From Chloroflexota bacterium (GTDB lineage Bacteria > Chloroflexota > UBA11872 > UBA12225), in NCBI GenBank assembly GCA_947446285.1, contig CANFGH010000013.1, positions 1 to 47,883 of the forward strand: DNA of 47,883 bases, written 5' to 3'. A program made the position numbers and the translations under genes. Positions 39,024 through 47,883 of the stretch are shown here, one piece after another. Below the pieces are notes generated by a model. It saw only the letters and a list, made by a program, of their open reading frames with translations. It had not been told where the DNA came from and ran no database searches. How positions within the stretch are numbered: position 1 is the first letter of the stretch; every line of letters begins with the position of its first letter.

Positions 39024-39174
39024 TCCTGCCTCCCGGCCATCCGTGTGACCGTCACGATATACCCCGGGGCCCGAATTTGCCGTGGGTTGCAGCTGCGTCC
39101 GGGGGTCTGACGCGCTACGATGGCGGACACCCGCAGAGACGCTTCGGAGTCCCTGCCGGGTGTCGGGAGGCGGA

Positions 39175-40935
39175 ATGGCGTCGATGAGTGATCAGACTTC
39201 GGGGCGGACCGGATCAGCGTTCACGCCGGCCCCCGGCGCGGGGTTCGTCCCTGGTGGCGTTGGCCGGATGCAGGAGGCACTGATTGGGGCTGACTACCGG
39301 CGGACCGCCGGCGAGTTCACCGGATTGATCAAGGATGGGCAATCGATGCCCGACCTGGTCCGGCATGCCCTGAATGTCGCCGCTCCCTACCTGACGGTCC
39401 CGTCACACGTGATGGTTGCCGAGAGCGGCGAGTACAGCAACGTCAACTACGATCACTGTGTCCTCGGCCTGCGCGCGTCGCGTCGTCTATTGTCGTATCT
39501 GCCTACGGGTCACCGCCAACTCGCAATGGCGCAGGCCGTCTGGTATATGCCTCAGGGTCTGGACGTCTGGGATCAGTTGCTGTGCGAGTTTCCGGGCCAC
39601 TATGCACGCGATGACAAGAAGTGTGGTCTGCGCCCTGGAGGCACGGATGAACACGGCGCGGACAGGTTTGACGGTCCCGCATGGAACGCACCCAAGGCGT
39701 GGTTCGACACCGACCACGAACCTGATCGCTCCGGGACATCGGCAGATCGGCTGCGTCGACTGCAGGAGCGGATCCTCGAGGGTGACCGGCACGGTGCGTA
39801 TCGGGTGTCGCTGGGCTTGCGACGCGAAGCCGATCCCGTCGTCCGGCGCCAACTTGAAGCCCAGTTACTGTTCTGCGGGATCATCGACTTGCAGGACACC
39901 TTGCAGACCCGCAAGTTGCAGAACATTGGCCATAAGGCGCTTCGGGCCCGCGCCGCGGTCGACCTGACAAGCCTGGTGGGTTGGGATCACGCGGATCCTC
40001 TCTACTACTGTGTCGTGCCTGACCTAGCCTGTTTTCCACGCCTCTATCCACTGTTTGACATGACCACGGTCACCCTGACAAACCGGTTCAAGGGAGACCA
40101 GTGGTCCCTGAAGTCGCGGAACGTCGGCTATCTGGATGACGTCAACCGTGACCGCCTCACCGCAGCCATGCTCCACGGCAAGCTTGCAGACGTCACCGCG
40201 GTGATCACCGATTTGCTCGCTGATGGAGTGCGGGTGATCGAGATTTCCGACGCGATCATCGCGGCGTTTTGCCGTCACCTTGTTGACGAGGCGTGGTCGT
40301 CCAAGTCCTTCTTCCAGATCGGGCACGCATTTGACTACAGCAATGTCGTCAGCTTCTGGTTGCGCGAATACGACCATCCCCATCAGGCGAAGGCTCCCTA
40401 TTTCCAGGCTGCTTTCGTTAATGACTGCATACAGATGAACAAGTTCTTCCCGCCCGATCCCGGCAGCCCCCTCTGGGTTGGTGATCCACGTGAGCATCGG
40501 GGATGGGCGGACGGACTCCCCCTATCCGAGTGCCTGACGCAAATTCTCGCGGCGACCGAGACCCTCGATTACCCACGGGCCGGGGCGTGCGTCGAGACTT
40601 ACCTGTCCCGGACCCGTGAACGGACCAAACTGCTTCGAACACTCGTCCTTGCCTCATCAAAGATGCAGAACGATCCTCACCAGCAACGTCATGCGGCATC
40701 GATGGTTGAGGAATGGGAACACACAACCGCTGGGGACGGTGCCCGCGACACGATGCTTCGCGCGTGGGTGAAGTATGTCGCCGGGGGGGCGAAACGCACG
40801 ACCGACCTGGAATGTGTCCGCATGTTCGAGACTAGCCTCGGACTGAGTTCGTCGGTTATCCGTACGCCCGACCATCTGCAGGCCGACCGCGGGGTGATGG
40901 GAGTGACGCTGGCAAAGCCAGTCGATATTCCTTGA
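39175..40935 (+). CDS. Uncharacterised ~587-aa protein
   Basis: Long ORF with SD GGGAGG before ATG at 39175 (MASMSDQTSG...) and consistent coding character. No family recognised. Conserved-looking His/Trp/Tyr-rich stretches such as 'NVNYDHCVLGLRASRRLLSYL', 'AQAVWYMPQGLDVWDQ' and 'IGHAFDYSNVVSFWLREYDHPHQ'. Confidence 0.8.
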   Translation: MASMSDQTSGRTGSAFTPAPGAGFVPGGVGRMQEALIGADYRRTAGEFTGLIKDGQSMPDLVRHALNVAAPYLTVPSHVMVAESGEYSNVNYDHCVLGLRASRRLLSYLPTGHRQLAMAQAVWYMPQGLDVWDQLLCEFPGHYARDDKKCGLRPGGTDEHGADRFDGPAWNAPKAWFDTDHEPDRSGTSADRLRRLQERILEGDRHGAYRVSLGLRREADPVVRRQLEAQLLFCGIIDLQDTLQTRKLQNIGHKALRARAAVDLTSLVGWDHADPLYYCVVPDLACFPRLYPLFDMTTVTLTNRFKGDQWSLKSRNVGYLDDVNRDRLTAAMLHGKLADVTAVITDLLADGVRVIEISDAIIAAFCRHLVDEAWSSKSFFQIGHAFDYSNVVSFWLREYDHPHQAKAPYFQAAFVNDCIQMNKFFPPDPGSPLWVGDPREHRGWADGLPLSECLTQILAATETLDYPRAGACVETYLSRTRERTKLLRTLVLASSKMQNDPHQQRHAASMVEEWEHTTAGDGARDTMLRAWVKYVAGGAKRTTDLECVRMFETSLGLSSSVIRTPDHLQADRGVMGVTLAKPVDIP

Positions 40936-41041: not shown

Positions 41042-42205
41042 ATGAAGCGCGTCGGGGTAGTCGGGTTTGGGCGTCGACTGCAGCACATGGTCAAGGTTGT
41101 CCAACGCAATGACCCGGATGTTGTTGTCACTGCCATTGTTGACCCGGCCTCTGACACCCGTCGTGCCGAATTTCCAGATGTGCTCGGGTCGGCGACTTCG
41201 TTTTCCGGCATTGAACAGATGCTTGACGCCGGGAACCTTGACGGCGTCATGGTCGGGACGAGATGCGATCTCCACACTCCGGTTGCCGTTGAGGTGCTTG
41301 CGAGCAATCTTCCCCTTTTCCTGGAGAAACCGGTCGCGATCGATTGGGACCAATTTCATCGCCTGAGCGAAGCATTTACGGCAAGCAAAAGCCCGACAGT
41401 GGTCGGGTTCCCGTTGCGGGTCTCTCCACTGTGTGAGCTCGCGGCGCGCATCGTGCGCAGTGGAGCGCTTGGAACCCTTGCCCAGGTGCAGGCGGTGAAC
41501 AATGTTCCGGACTACTCGATCGGCTACTACATGGGCTGGATGCGCGACGAGACCCAGACTGGTGGCCTCTGGTTGCAAAAGGCGACCCACGACTTTGACT
41601 ACTTGCTTTCACTGCTTGGCGACGGTGAACTCGCCGGACATCCGACCCGGGTGATTGCCATGGAATCCAAGCAGGTATTTCGGGGTGATCGGCCCGCCGG
41701 ATTGCACTGTCGTGACTGTGATATCCGGCACGAATGCGTGGAAAGTCCGTACTTGCCGGGAAGCGCGCGGTCGCGCCAGATTGACCGTGAAGCGGCAAGC
41801 CTGCAATGCGCCTTCGCGGTCGACACCGGGAACCATGACAGCGCAAGCGCCCTGATCCAGTTCGAGACTGGTCTCCACTTGAATTACACCCAGAACTTCG
41901 TGACCCGCCGAGGTGCCGCCGCCCGGGGTGCGACGGTGATTGGGCACGATGCGACGTTGTCGTTTGATTGGTATCGCGACGAGTTGGTGGTGCATCACCA
42001 TCACGACGAGCGGGTTGAAAGGCATATCTTTGTGAAAGGAGATGCGGGTCACGGCCACCACGGCGGGGATGATGAACTCGGTCGTGACTTCATCAAGGCG
42101 ATGTCTGGCCGGACGTCATCGCGGGCGTCACTCGCCATCGGGCTTGAAAGTGCCCGGCTATGCCTCAGAGCCCGTGATGCCGCCCGCGCTACGACGTCGC
42201 ACTGA
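41042..42205 (+). CDS. Gfo/Idh/MocA family oxidoreductase with Cys cluster
   Basis: 'KRVGVVGFGRRLQHMVKVVQ', 'FLEKPVAIDWDQF', 'LHCRDCDIRHECVES', 'DAGHGHHGGDDELGRDFIKAM'. SD GAGGAG before ATG. Confidence 0.9.
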   Translation: MKRVGVVGFGRRLQHMVKVVQRNDPDVVVTAIVDPASDTRRAEFPDVLGSATSFSGIEQMLDAGNLDGVMVGTRCDLHTPVAVEVLASNLPLFLEKPVAIDWDQFHRLSEAFTASKSPTVVGFPLRVSPLCELAARIVRSGALGTLAQVQAVNNVPDYSIGYYMGWMRDETQTGGLWLQKATHDFDYLLSLLGDGELAGHPTRVIAMESKQVFRGDRPAGLHCRDCDIRHECVESPYLPGSARSRQIDREAASLQCAFAVDTGNHDSASALIQFETGLHLNYTQNFVTRRGAAARGATVIGHDATLSFDWYRDELVVHHHHDERVERHIFVKGDAGHGHHGGDDELGRDFIKAMSGRTSSRASLAIGLESARLCLRARDAARATTSH

Positions 42206-43260
42206 TGATTGTCCGCTCACAAGGACCTGGTCCGATGCAATCGATACCTTTGACTGATCCGCGCTTGGCTTGGGACGGCGCGGTCGGCGTGACCCACGGC
42301 GCTGATGGATCCCGTGGTTGGCGCATACCTCCTGGTGAGCGTGATGTCTGGCACCCGGAACTTGTCATCCGTGCCGCAATGCCCGCCGGGGTACGGATAC
42401 GGTTCGTCACTGACGCGTCGGCGGTCGCAGGGACGGTCGAGGCTGATCAGGAGAGTAGTCCGATTGACATCGTCGCCGACGGCCACCTCATCGCGAGTTT
42501 GCCGGTAGGCGGATCAGCATCCTTTTTGTGTGACAGCCTGCCTGCGGGAACCAAGGTCCTCGAAATCTGGTTGCCGCAGTTCGGTCCCTTCGCCATCACC
42601 GGCTTGAAACTCTCCGCGGGCGCGATGGTCAGCGCCGTGAACGACGGTCGGCCACGTTGGGTCACTTACGGGAGTTCTATCACTCAGTGCCGCGCCGCGC
42701 CGTCGCCAACGCAGACTTGGCCGGCGATTGTGGCGCGCCACGCAGATCTCAACCTGACATGCCTTGGGTATGGCGGTCAATGCCATCTGGACATCGGCGT
42801 CGCCAGGCTGATCAGGTCCCTCCCTGCGTCCTACATATCGATATGCGCAGGTATCAACATCTACGGCGCCGCAAGTCTCGGGCCGCGCGCATTCCGGACA
42901 ACCCTGACTGGGTTTGTCCAAATTGTTCGGGATGGTCACCCGGTGACACCGATTGTGTTGGTCTCTCCAATCTGGGGTGTCCATCGTGAGACCGAGATGA
43001 ACCTGGTTGGGTTCACCCTTGCATCTATGCGCGACGAGGTCCAGGCCGTCGTGGAATTGCTGCGTTCACGTGGTGATCGCCAGACCCACTACGTCGATGG
43101 CCAGACCCTGTTCGGCGCAAGTTCGGCACATCACTTGCCCGACGACCTTCACCCGAATGGCGAGGGATATCGGGTTCTGGCCACAAACTTCCTGACACAG
43201 GTTGTCGACCCGTACTTCCGTCCGGCACGCGCAGATGACGGGCGTGTGCTTCACCTGTGA
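42205..43260 (+). CDS. SGNH/GDSL hydrolase family protein
   Basis: Block I 'VTYGSSITQ', block II 'LGYGGQCH', block III-like 'ICAGINIYG', block V 'HLPDDLHPNGEGY'. Start overlaps the preceding stop (TGATG). Confidence 0.88.
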   Translation: MIVRSQGPGPMQSIPLTDPRLAWDGAVGVTHGADGSRGWRIPPGERDVWHPELVIRAAMPAGVRIRFVTDASAVAGTVEADQESSPIDIVADGHLIASLPVGGSASFLCDSLPAGTKVLEIWLPQFGPFAITGLKLSAGAMVSAVNDGRPRWVTYGSSITQCRAAPSPTQTWPAIVARHADLNLTCLGYGGQCHLDIGVARLIRSLPASYISICAGINIYGAASLGPRAFRTTLTGFVQIVRDGHPVTPIVLVSPIWGVHRETEMNLVGFTLASMRDEVQAVVELLRSRGDRQTHYVDGQTLFGASSAHHLPDDLHPNGEGYRVLATNFLTQVVDPYFRPARADDGRVLHL

Positions 43261-43282
43261 CGCCCCATTTGGAGAGAACGGA

Positions 43283-44434
43283 ATGCCAAGCGTCTCTGCA
43301 ATTCAGTCAGCCACGACCCTAGCCCTGCGGGAAGCCCTTGCCCTGTACGGTGAAATCGGCTGGCAGGCCGCGGTAATCCATCGGGGTGCGCTTGTCGTCG
43401 ATGCAGTTGCCGGTGTCGCCGATCAAGCCACGGGACGCCCGGTTGAGCAGGACACCCTATTCCTGGTGTTCTCGAACTCCAAGGGCGTGACAGCGACCGT
43501 CGTGCACCGCCTCGTCGAACGGGGTTTGATGGAGTACGACGCGCCGCTTGCCACGTACTGGCCCGAATTCGCCAAGCATGGCAAGGGGAATGTCACGGTG
43601 CGACATGCCCTGAGCCATCGCGCGGGCCTCCCAGAGTTCCGCGACATGCCGATAACTGACTATCCCAGCCTGTTGCAAACTGGGCGCCATCTCGAGAATG
43701 CCACGCCAGATTGGGCGCCAGGTGCGTCAATGGCCTATCACAGCATGACGTTCGGGACACTTTTGGGTCGGGCAGTTGAGGGGGCTACCGGCACACCGTT
43801 TGGTGACGTCATGCGCGCCGAGGTCGCACATCCATTGGGTCTTGACGACATGTGGTTCGGCGTCCCCGCAGATGTCGCGGTGAGCGCGAGGATTGCGACC
43901 CTCGAAGCTGCAAAAGACCCGGACCCGTCAACTGGTCTCGGACCGATGACCCATGAGGAACACGACGACCGGGCGCAGTCAGCGTCAGAGTTCAATACTT
44001 CAGGCGCCCGCGCTGGCTGCATGCCGGCAGCCGGCCTGATCACAAACGCTCGTGCGTTGGTGCGTCATTACGCCGCAATGAGGGAGGCTGAGTTGGATGG
44101 GGTCCGCCTACTGAGCCCATCGACGATTGCCGAGGCGACAATCCCGTACTCCGGTGCCGATGGTGCGCATGTGGCGTGGACGACGCGCATGGGCCTTGGG
44201 TATGCGTTGGGTGCGGCGATACACCCGTTCTGCGGCATTCCAACGGTCGCGCCATGGCCCGATGCCTTCGGTCACACCGGTCTTGGTGGGTCGATATCGA
44301 TGTATTGCCCATCACATGACTTGGCTGTGGTGATGACGAAGAATGCGCTGGCGCCCGCGCGGTTCAGTTTCCAATCGTGGGACCTTGTCTTGCGGGCGAT
44401 TGCGGGTGCATTGGGCATCGACTGCGACGGGTAG
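43283..44434 (+). CDS. Serine hydrolase / class C beta-lactamase-like (EstB-like)
   Basis: SxxK 'FSNSKGVTATVVHRLVERGLMEYDAPLATYWPEFA', 'VRHALSHRAGLPEF', 'AYHSMTFGTLLGRAVE', 'FGHTGLGGSISM'. ATG at 43283 after SD-like GGAGAG. Confidence 0.93.
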   Translation: MPSVSAIQSATTLALREALALYGEIGWQAAVIHRGALVVDAVAGVADQATGRPVEQDTLFLVFSNSKGVTATVVHRLVERGLMEYDAPLATYWPEFAKHGKGNVTVRHALSHRAGLPEFRDMPITDYPSLLQTGRHLENATPDWAPGASMAYHSMTFGTLLGRAVEGATGTPFGDVMRAEVAHPLGLDDMWFGVPADVAVSARIATLEAAKDPDPSTGLGPMTHEEHDDRAQSASEFNTSGARAGCMPAAGLITNARALVRHYAAMREAELDGVRLLSPSTIAEATIPYSGADGAHVAWTTRMGLGYALGAAIHPFCGIPTVAPWPDAFGHTGLGGSISMYCPSHDLAVVMTKNALAPARFSFQSWDLVLRAIAGALGIDCDG

Positions 44435-44497
44435 TGCCAGGCCGGGGACTTCCACAGATCCGGGTGCTGAACGTGCGCCAGGTTGCGGAGCGCCTCG

Positions 44498-45106
44498 CTA
44501 AGTTCTTATTTCGGCGAGAAGGCGTCGAAAAACCGCCTCGCTGTCCTCTTCTCCAAGGAGGTGACGAACTTTCCGGTCCGTCTCGGCGCTGTCCTCGATG
44601 CGCGCACGATGCGCGGCGAGGGCATCGGCGGCACTAATGCCGTGCACCATGCAGTCCTTGATCGCGCGGAAATAGTGGTCGACGGCGCTTGCGGTCCCAA
44701 GGATCATCCCGGCAAGGTCGATGTCCGGCTGGCACATCACCGTGAACGTCCAGATGAACGTCAGACGAGCATCCGTTGGGTCGATTGCGAGGGATCCGGC
44801 CTTGATTTCGTGCTGGTTGATCTGGTTGAGGAGCAGTTGAGTCTGGGCCAGGTTGAATGGAGCAATCGCGAGTGCTGGACATGCCGCAGTGTCGAAACCG
44901 AGGACATCGGCGGTTGACCGAACTCCGAGCAGCACAGCCTCTCCGTCGAGAGAAAAGGCGTAGAGGCCGAATTCGTAACTTGGTGCTTCCGTCCCGGTCA
45001 ATGCCACGGCCAGGGCATCCCGTTCGACGAAGCATGATATGCCCAGCGATTCGAGGAGCTGGTCAATCGACAGGATCAGGTTTTCGATGCGGTTCGGATA
45101 CATCAT
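44498..45106 (-). CDS. YbjN-like (type III secretion chaperone-fold-like) protein A
   Basis: 'ALAIAPFNLAQTQLLLNQINQHEIKAGSLAIDPTDARLTFIWTFTVMCQPDIDLAGMILGTASAVDHYFRAIKD'. Start at ATG 45106 after SD GAGAGG. Confidence 0.65.
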   Translation of the reverse strand: MMYPNRIENLILSIDQLLESLGISCFVERDALAVALTGTEAPSYEFGLYAFSLDGEAVLLGVRSTADVLGFDTAACPALAIAPFNLAQTQLLLNQINQHEIKAGSLAIDPTDARLTFIWTFTVMCQPDIDLAGMILGTASAVDHYFRAIKDCMVHGISAADALAAHRARIEDSAETDRKVRHLLGEEDSEAVFRRLLAEIRT

Positions 45107-45193
45107 TGGGTTTCCTCTCCCGTTCCACACGCCGATGTGAGACGCACCCTCATCCTGCTTTGATGCAGGTGCAATAGGTTTCCCCTGAGCGCG

Positions 45194-45745
45194 TTAGGCG
45201 ATGAGCGCGTGATCGTCGCCGTCTGCCTGTGCGCGGGGCGAAATAATCTTCAAGAGCGCTGCCGTTGCCGTTTTCTCTCCAGATGCGACTGCCACAAGTT
45301 CCGGGCGACAACCGTCAATCGAGTTCAAACCGGCGTTGACCACCGTGGTAAACGTTTTTTGGTCCAGCGTGGCTGGGATTGGTACGCGCCAGGTGTGGTT
45401 GATCGTCGCGGAGGCATTATCGAAACTCAGCGAACCCAGCAGTTGCGTGACTGGGTTCAGCAAGCTCACCAAGGCGTAGACCTGCTCACGTTCACAGGGT
45501 TGAAGGCTCGGGCTACCCTCACCCGTGTCGGATCCCATCGTGTGCACCAGGACCAATGGAGCCGACGTGTCGACGATCAGGGTTTGGACCCGGCCATTGA
45601 AGAAGTCTGCGGTGATACGGGTCGTGAAGCGAACGGTGTCACGAATTTGGTCAACCACAAAGACGCCTTCCTCAAGGGTATAGGGCATGGCCTTTTCATT
45701 GAGGAATGCAATGACTTGGGTGTGTATAGAATGTATGATTTCCAA
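45194..45745 (-). CDS. YbjN-like protein B (paralogous in layout to the downstream gene)
   Basis: 'QVYALVSLLNPVTQLLGSLSFDNASATINHTWRVPIPATLDQKTFTTVVNAGLNSIDGCRPELVAVASG' follows the YbjN-like pattern. Probable TTG start at 45745 after AAAGGAAG; alternative GTG at 45778. Confidence 0.6.
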   Translation of the reverse strand: MEIIHSIHTQVIAFLNEKAMPYTLEEGVFVVDQIRDTVRFTTRITADFFNGRVQTLIVDTSAPLVLVHTMGSDTGEGSPSLQPCEREQVYALVSLLNPVTQLLGSLSFDNASATINHTWRVPIPATLDQKTFTTVVNAGLNSIDGCRPELVAVASGEKTATAALLKIISPRAQADGDDHALIA

Positions 45746-46188
45746 GATACGACTTCCTTTCGTCGTGAGTGCGGGCACGCCTTCAACAGATCAAGTTCCG
45801 GATTTGTGATCGGTGCGAGCTGCGCTCACGAACGGGGTCATCGCCAGATTGCCGGATGCTCTTTTGTCGCTTGTGATACCCATCGTGTTCCAGGGCGCCC
45901 GGAACCCCTTTCCCTTGTGCTCACCTAGGTCACCAAAAATGTCTCTTGTGACACGCGAACATTTGTTGTGACTGCCCCAGTCGCAACCGTGGATGCTTGA
46001 AGACCCGGGTGAACTTCGCCAATTGCCGGACTGCCCGAGTGAAGCCGCCGTTGTCGCGAGAGAGAGGCCGATTGGTTTGAAGTCGCATGCCTGATCCGGG
46101 GACCTTCCGGAGGCGTGTTGGTTCTCGGCTAGCGGAATACCGCACCGAGTTGAATGCGACCCATTTGGCCACCAGTCAGAGAAGGCAC

Positions 46189-46205
46189 TACGCTGAGCAG
46201 CCATG
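46189..46205 (+). promoter_or_regulatory. -10-like TACGCT 8 nt upstream of the M19 dipeptidase ATG
   Basis: TTGGCC, 18 nt, TACGCT, 8 nt, ATG (46203). Confidence 0.4.
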
Positions 46206-47222
46206 AACTGCAAGCTGACTGACCAAAAACGCGATGCTCTTGACAAGGCCAAGAGCATCATAAGTAACACCTTGGTCTGGGATAACCACGGATGCATGCC
46301 AGTCGGAGCGCCCTTCGGGACTGACTTCCTGCCCGAACTTCGCCGCTATCGTGAGGCTGGTGTAAATATCGTCTCGTTGAATGTCGGGTTCGGCGAAATG
46401 GACGTTGCTGACCACTTCCAGACCCTCGCTACGATCCGACGCTGGGTGTCCATGCACGATGACTACATGCTGGTTTCGACTTCTGCGGACGTGTACTTGG
46501 CGGAACAGACAGGGCGACTTGGTGTTTGCTTTGACATCGAGGGTGCGAACGCAATCGGAGATCTGTTGTCGCTCATCAGCGCGTATCACTCCCTAGGCGT
46601 TCGCTGGATGCTTCTTGCGTACAACCTGAACAACCTTGCCGGCGGGGGGTGCCAGGACGACGACGATGGTATGACAGCTTTCGGGCACGATGTCGTGCGC
46701 GAGATGGAGCGCGTGGGCATGGTGGTGTGCTGCAGCCATACTGGATACCGGACAGCACGCGATGTTCTAAAAATGGCTACGAAACCAGTGGTTTTCTCTC
46801 ACAGCAATGCACACGATATCGTTGCCCATCCGCGGAACCTCCCTGACGACCTTGTGCGGGAGTGTGCCCAGACCGGGGGCGTCGTGGGGGTCAACGGTAT
46901 CGGCCTTTTCCTCGGCCCCGCCGACGGAGACTAGGCCGAGCCCGTGGCAACACACATTGATCACATGGTTCAGCTAGTCGGTCCACGGCACATCGGACTT
47001 GGGTTGGACTACGTGTTCGATACCGGGGAACTCAAGACGTATCTCGCCAAGATGCGCGCAACCTTCCCCACTGAGTTCGGCTACGACACCGAGATTCCCA
47101 TGCTTCCGCCGGAAAATGTGCTCGATGTTGTCGCATCGTTGCTTCGACGCGGCTACGCAGAAAGTGACATCCGCTCAATCCTCGGAGGCAAATTTCTGCG
47201 GATTGCCCGCGAGGTCTGGTGA
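46203..47222 (+). pseudogene. Membrane dipeptidase (peptidase M19, COG2355-like), interrupted by one in-frame TAG at 46932-46934
   Basis: 46203-46931 encodes 'FDIEGANAIGDLLSLISAYHSLGVRWMLLAYNLNNLAGGGCQDDDDGMTAFGHDVVREMERVGMVVCCSHTGYRT...VFSHSNAHDIVAHPRNLPDDLVRECAQTGGVVGVNGIGLFLGPADGD'. After TAG the same frame continues 'AEPVATHIDHMVQLVGPRHIGLGLDYVFD...GYAESDIRSILGGKFLRIAREVW'. Confidence 0.88.
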
Positions 47223-47273
47223 CTTTGGTTCGTCACCAGCCTCTCGCATTCGCCTGAGAACCGACGGCGCTCA

Positions 47274-47696
47274 TCACGCCGCGAGACGTTCGCCCGACGA
47301 AGCGGTCACAGACGACAGGGCCGCCGCCATGAGCAGGTCATCAAAAGCCGGAAGGGCACGGTAAGCGCGTCGCCAGGCTACAAACGCGGCACCGCGACGT
47401 GCTTCGGCGTTGATGAAGTGCTCCCAAGCCGATGCGCACCTCTCTGCTGCGACTTGGAGTAGCCCGCCACCGGCTGCCTTGTCATGAATCTCCCGCGCCG
47501 CAACCCAACTGTGCCAAGCGTCCTGCTCAGCTGCGTCAGCCTCGACAAGGGCTTGGTATTCGGGAAGCGCAGTGGAAGCACGTGCACATGAATCCCGAGC
47601 TGCCGTTCGCTTCCAGACGAGCGACTGGGACAGGAAATGCGTTGGCACCGGGTGTGTGGAGGTCGCTTCGTCTGGATTGACATTCATGCCTGACAC
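47274..47696 (-). CDS. Small uncharacterised Ala-rich, probably helical protein
   Basis: 140-aa ORF; GTG start preceded by a strong SD (AGGAGGA, 6-nt spacing). No family recognised. Confidence 0.5.
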   Translation of the reverse strand: MSGMNVNPDEATSTHPVPTHFLSQSLVWKRTAARDSCARASTALPEYQALVEADAAEQDAWHSWVAAREIHDKAAGGGLLQVAAERCASAWEHFINAEARRGAAFVAWRRAYRALPAFDDLLMAAALSSVTASSGERLAA

Positions 47697-47754
47697 CGTC
47701 GGTCCTCCTGTAAAGGTGTGCCAGAGACAACCACCCTGTCTCGCGGAAAGCGTA

Positions 47755-47883
47755 ATGCTCGGAGCCAGCGGACGTCCGTTACTTGGGCGTACCGAGAAGT
47801 GTCGAACGCGTTTCGAACGACCGGCACCCGAGTGGATGCCGGTCTATCGCCTGACTATCAATGAGAAGCGCATCTCCGATACC
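47755..47883 (+). CDS. Possible partial CDS running off the right edge (start uncertain)
   Basis: Open frame MLGASGRPLLGRTEKCRTRFERPAPEWMPVYRLTINEKRISDT to the window end. An internal ATG at 47836 begins MPVYRLTINEKRISDT. Too short to assign. Confidence 0.3.
   Translation, partial: MLGASGRPLLGRTEKCRTRFERPAPEWMPVYRLTINEKRISDT

Follow-up and report, generated by a model that had tools for sequence, protein, structure and literature searches.

Can a gene that is interrupted by one in-frame stop codon still be read into a working enzyme, or has the gene simply been lost? This question is raised by a locus near the end of a contig (C13) of a Chloroflexota bacterium. The whole contig, 47,883 nucleotides in length, was analysed and is called the window here, and the source genome is a MAG of 3.42 Mb in 217 contigs with a completeness of 89%. 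In the window, one frame starts with ATG, runs through 243 sense codons to a TAG, and then goes on in the same register for 95 sense codons to a TGA. The TAG is the sole internal stop of this frame. We found that both pieces match the Pfam family Peptidase_M19 (PF01244; curated cut-off of 26 bits) separately and in collinear order, the 5′ piece with 183.4 bits over profile positions 38–241 and the 3′ piece with 50.6 bits over profile positions 249–319. When the TAG was treated as a residue, the whole frame reached 244.7 bits. A sequence-only reading of this DNA had described a single TAG inside an otherwise intact M19 gene, and the profile matches bear this out.

The frame resembles the M19 membrane (renal) dipeptidases of COG2355 in that the family match extends at full length across the stop. 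In addition, H29, E113, H179, H200, and D269 are all present and are invariant in the relatives, and from what is known of the M19 family we take them to be the metal-site or catalytic His, Glu, and Asp residues. The nearest solved relatives are the amidohydrolase 2i5g and dipeptidases such as 3id7 and 1itq. However, the single uninterrupted coding frame that is expected of Peptidase M19 is broken here, which predicts a truncated product. A search of NCBIfam did not assign the frame to a named subfamily, and no second M19 gene was found in the source genome. The features are collected in Table 1.

Table 1. Features of the interrupted M19 gene, with positions in the window
Feature	Position	Strand	Evidence
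M19 (COG2355-like) zinc dipeptidase frame with one TAG	46203–47222	+	PF01244, 1.8e-72 with the TAG treated as a residue; intact collinear orthologue in UBA2235
5′ piece, 243 aa and TAG; most of the barrel; H29, E113, H179, H200	46203–46934	+	PF01244, 8e-54; residue conservation
Amber codon (derived state); the two congeners with an orthologous copy have CAG (Gln)	46932–46934	+	Codon comparison
3′ piece, 95 sense codons and TGA; GLGLDYVFD (Asp269) and C-terminal GGxFLR block	46935–47222	+	PF01244, 2e-13; conservation

The nearest congener is Chloroflexi bacterium UBA2235 (phylum Chloroflexota), which is collinear with the window from about 12.2 kb to the window end. Its M19 orthologue lies in the collinear position, is intact, shares 91–92% amino acid identity with the frame, and carries CAG (Gln) at exactly the codon of the TAG. 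In addition, the orthologue of a second congener (genome G001), with 75% DNA identity, also has CAG at this codon. Since CAG is found in both UBA2235 and the outgroup congener G001, the TAG is the derived state and arose by a C-to-T transition on the branch of the source genome. Meanwhile, in the nearer 59 of the more distant relatives, this site is occupied by Ser, Arg, Thr, Leu, and other residues, in agreement with the variable loop that had been proposed around the TAG. Furthermore, internal stops in the aligned frame are absent from all 86 of the more distant M19 relatives that were examined.

Four options had been offered for the TAG, namely, a recent nonsense mutation, a sequencing or assembly error, amber readthrough, and re-initiation, and the ancestral CAG speaks for the first of them. 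With a probability of about 85%, we consider this locus to be an ordinary nonsense mutation, CAG to TAG, in a probably horizontally acquired and non-essential M19 dipeptidase gene, which would now be either a recently formed pseudogene or a null allele.

The decoding apparatus of the source genome bears on the possibility that the TAG is read as a sense codon. RF1 (prfA) is present with a score of 506.9 bits, above the cut-off, and a second release-factor homologue lies on another contig. TAG is the terminator of 8 of the 27 neighbouring genes, as had already been noticed for several genes of the window. The 89% complete MAG has 47 tRNA genes, which serve all twenty amino acids; a CUA anticodon occurs in none of them. 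A search for a PylRS/PheS-type synthetase (PF01409) gave no match in the source genome; since the essential PheS was likewise not recovered, the corresponding part of the genome may be lacking from the assembly, and this negative result is weak evidence. In the collinear 35 kb sampled, no other clear gene is interrupted. The RNA structure 3′ of the TAG is not unusual (z = −1.1), and 27 of 200 shuffles fold equally well, so a readthrough-promoting hairpin was rejected. Within the 89% complete MAG, we also rejected pyrrolysine decoding or a suppressor tRNA (no CUA tRNA, RF1 present, and TAG a normal stop) and genome-wide TAG reassignment (RF1 present and TAG ending neighbouring genes). Thus, readthrough machinery and reassignment are unsupported in view of the release factor, the set of tRNAs, the genes that end in TAG, and a stop context without recoding signals.

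Functional readthrough could also be carried out by a near-cognate tRNA-Gln or another tRNA, and then both full-length and truncated dipeptidase would be made in this lineage, the former at a useful level. Past the TAG, the frame stays open without a change of register, and many different residues are tolerated at the site. In addition, catalytic residues are retained both before and after the TAG, a fact that also counts against the pseudogene view. However, besides the findings on decoding given above, the stop is conserved in neither congener, and the source-genome-specific change N330K alters, 3′ of the stop, a residue that is Asn in 58 of 58 relatives. We regard functional readthrough as very improbable.

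Under the preferred reading of a nonsense mutation, a C-to-T transition at 46932 would have turned the Gln codon into an amber stop, and the ribosome would be expected to release a product of 243 residues. This predicted product keeps H29, E113, H179, and H200, and it lacks Asp269 and the C-terminal block, all of which are invariant or nearly so in the relatives. Asp269 itself is kept in 58 of 58 aligned relatives, and the expectation that a truncated product would lose this conserved Asp was therefore correct. In this metallo-barrel family, a fragment of such kind is expected to be inactive. With the last quarter of the barrel and Asp269 missing, the fragment would probably be inactive, and the gene would then be a pseudogene of recent origin or, alternatively, a null allele that segregates in the population.

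A split enzyme would escape this loss, if re-initiation at the GTG at 46944, only 9 nt past the stop, produced a C-terminal piece of 92 aa for assembly with the N-terminal piece of 243 aa. The GTG codon does exist as had been pointed out, and it gained no further support: a ribosome-binding site is not obvious in the sequence, a split is seen in no other relative, and N330K falls within the C-terminal piece. We find a split enzyme extremely unlikely.

Contig C13 ends 661 bp downstream of the M19 gene. Its last 312 bp (47572–47883) are overlapped by positions 1–312 of contig C185 of the same MAG with only 92% identity. This overlap is a sign of strain mixture and suggests that more than one haplotype meets at the contig break, and in such a mixed population the TAG may represent one of the alleles. 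The same overlap, the position near the contig end, and the fragmented state of the MAG would fit a sequencing, assembly, or strain-mixing error; in that case, an intact gene with CAG would be the true state, and the TAG would stem from an artefact of the consensus or from a minority haplotype. However, the M19 gene has no indels, the neighbours in the same stretch show a clean purifying pattern (dN/dS of about 0.15), and a single isolated C-to-T change is typical of a real mutation, on a branch that is also altered at invariant residues. We consider such an error unlikely.

Two further observations concern the region collinear with UBA2235. The last 5.7 kb of the window (42205–47883) has a synonymous divergence of 0.12–0.21 from the corresponding contig of UBA2235 (C95), versus about 0.5–1.0 elsewhere in the collinear region, and the high identity (92–93%) to this sister species carries on into contig C185. 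This low-divergence stretch could be a recombination tract or a recently shared island. Meanwhile, a conserved gene of 617 aa at 39082–40935 (forward strand) has a dN/dS of 0.07 and no match in Pfam or NCBIfam.

We also compared the selection on the M19 gene with that on its neighbours. The dN/dS of the M19 gene against UBA2235 is 0.32 (0.25 before the stop and 0.58 after it), and that of the adjacent GDSL hydrolase and beta-lactamase-family genes is 0.15–0.16 at a similarly low dS. Besides N330K, the source genome has the specific change L157M at a residue that is Leu in 59 of 59 relatives. With Gln placed at the stop, the source copy scores 503.5 bits against the profile versus 519.8 bits for the sister copy, and most of this deficit lies upstream of the stop. 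Nevertheless, the ratio of nonsynonymous to synonymous changes is 16:10 on the branch of the source genome and 10:11 on that of the sister (Fisher's test, P = 0.39), and the mean severity of the changes, measured as profile log-odds, does not separate the two branches. None of the three tests of relaxed selection (N:S by branch, before versus after the stop, and profile log-odds) was significant. Relaxed selection or decay of the M19 gene is thus suggested by these values, and it is not statistically secure. A weak signal of decay is to be anticipated for a young stop. Under neutral evolution of the gene, the 27 changes on the branch would include one stop or more with a probability of about one half.

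The copy of the second congener, G001, which lies on contig C109, contains two single-base indels, one insertion and one deletion, by which about 63 codons are shifted out of frame. This is apparently an independent disruption, or else assembly errors. From these two frameshifts, the M19 gene appears to be dispensable and non-essential. In addition, beyond the genus, the closest M19 relatives belong mainly to the Proteobacteria (44–60% identity), for the most part to the Burkholderiales and Sphingomonadales, and they are far closer than the members of the same Chloroflexota class (only about 38% identity). This pattern fits horizontal acquisition, and the M19 gene is probably a horizontally acquired accessory gene.

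The locus can be set beside two known systems. With pyrrolysine and amber-suppression systems, it shares an in-frame TAG within an otherwise open gene, and it differs from them in the absence of a PylRS-type match and a CUA tRNA, in the presence of RF1, and in the use of TAG as a normal stop. With bacterial pseudogenes that carry a single nonsense mutation, it shares one derived stop, an intact sister gene, apparent dispensability, and the lack of detected recoding machinery; we see no notable difference from them, the selection statistics being too weak to prove decay. A literature search returned nothing. Most likely, this is an ordinary loss-of-function mutation with no new reading of the genetic code.

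The frame is presumed to be a pseudogene or null allele, and in annotation the M19 gene should be marked as a probable one; beyond this, the finding has little import. It removes one candidate for amber recoding. Furthermore, it provides an instance of accessory-peptidase loss in an uncultured genus of the Chloroflexota, of which another member carries a seemingly independent disruption of the same gene.
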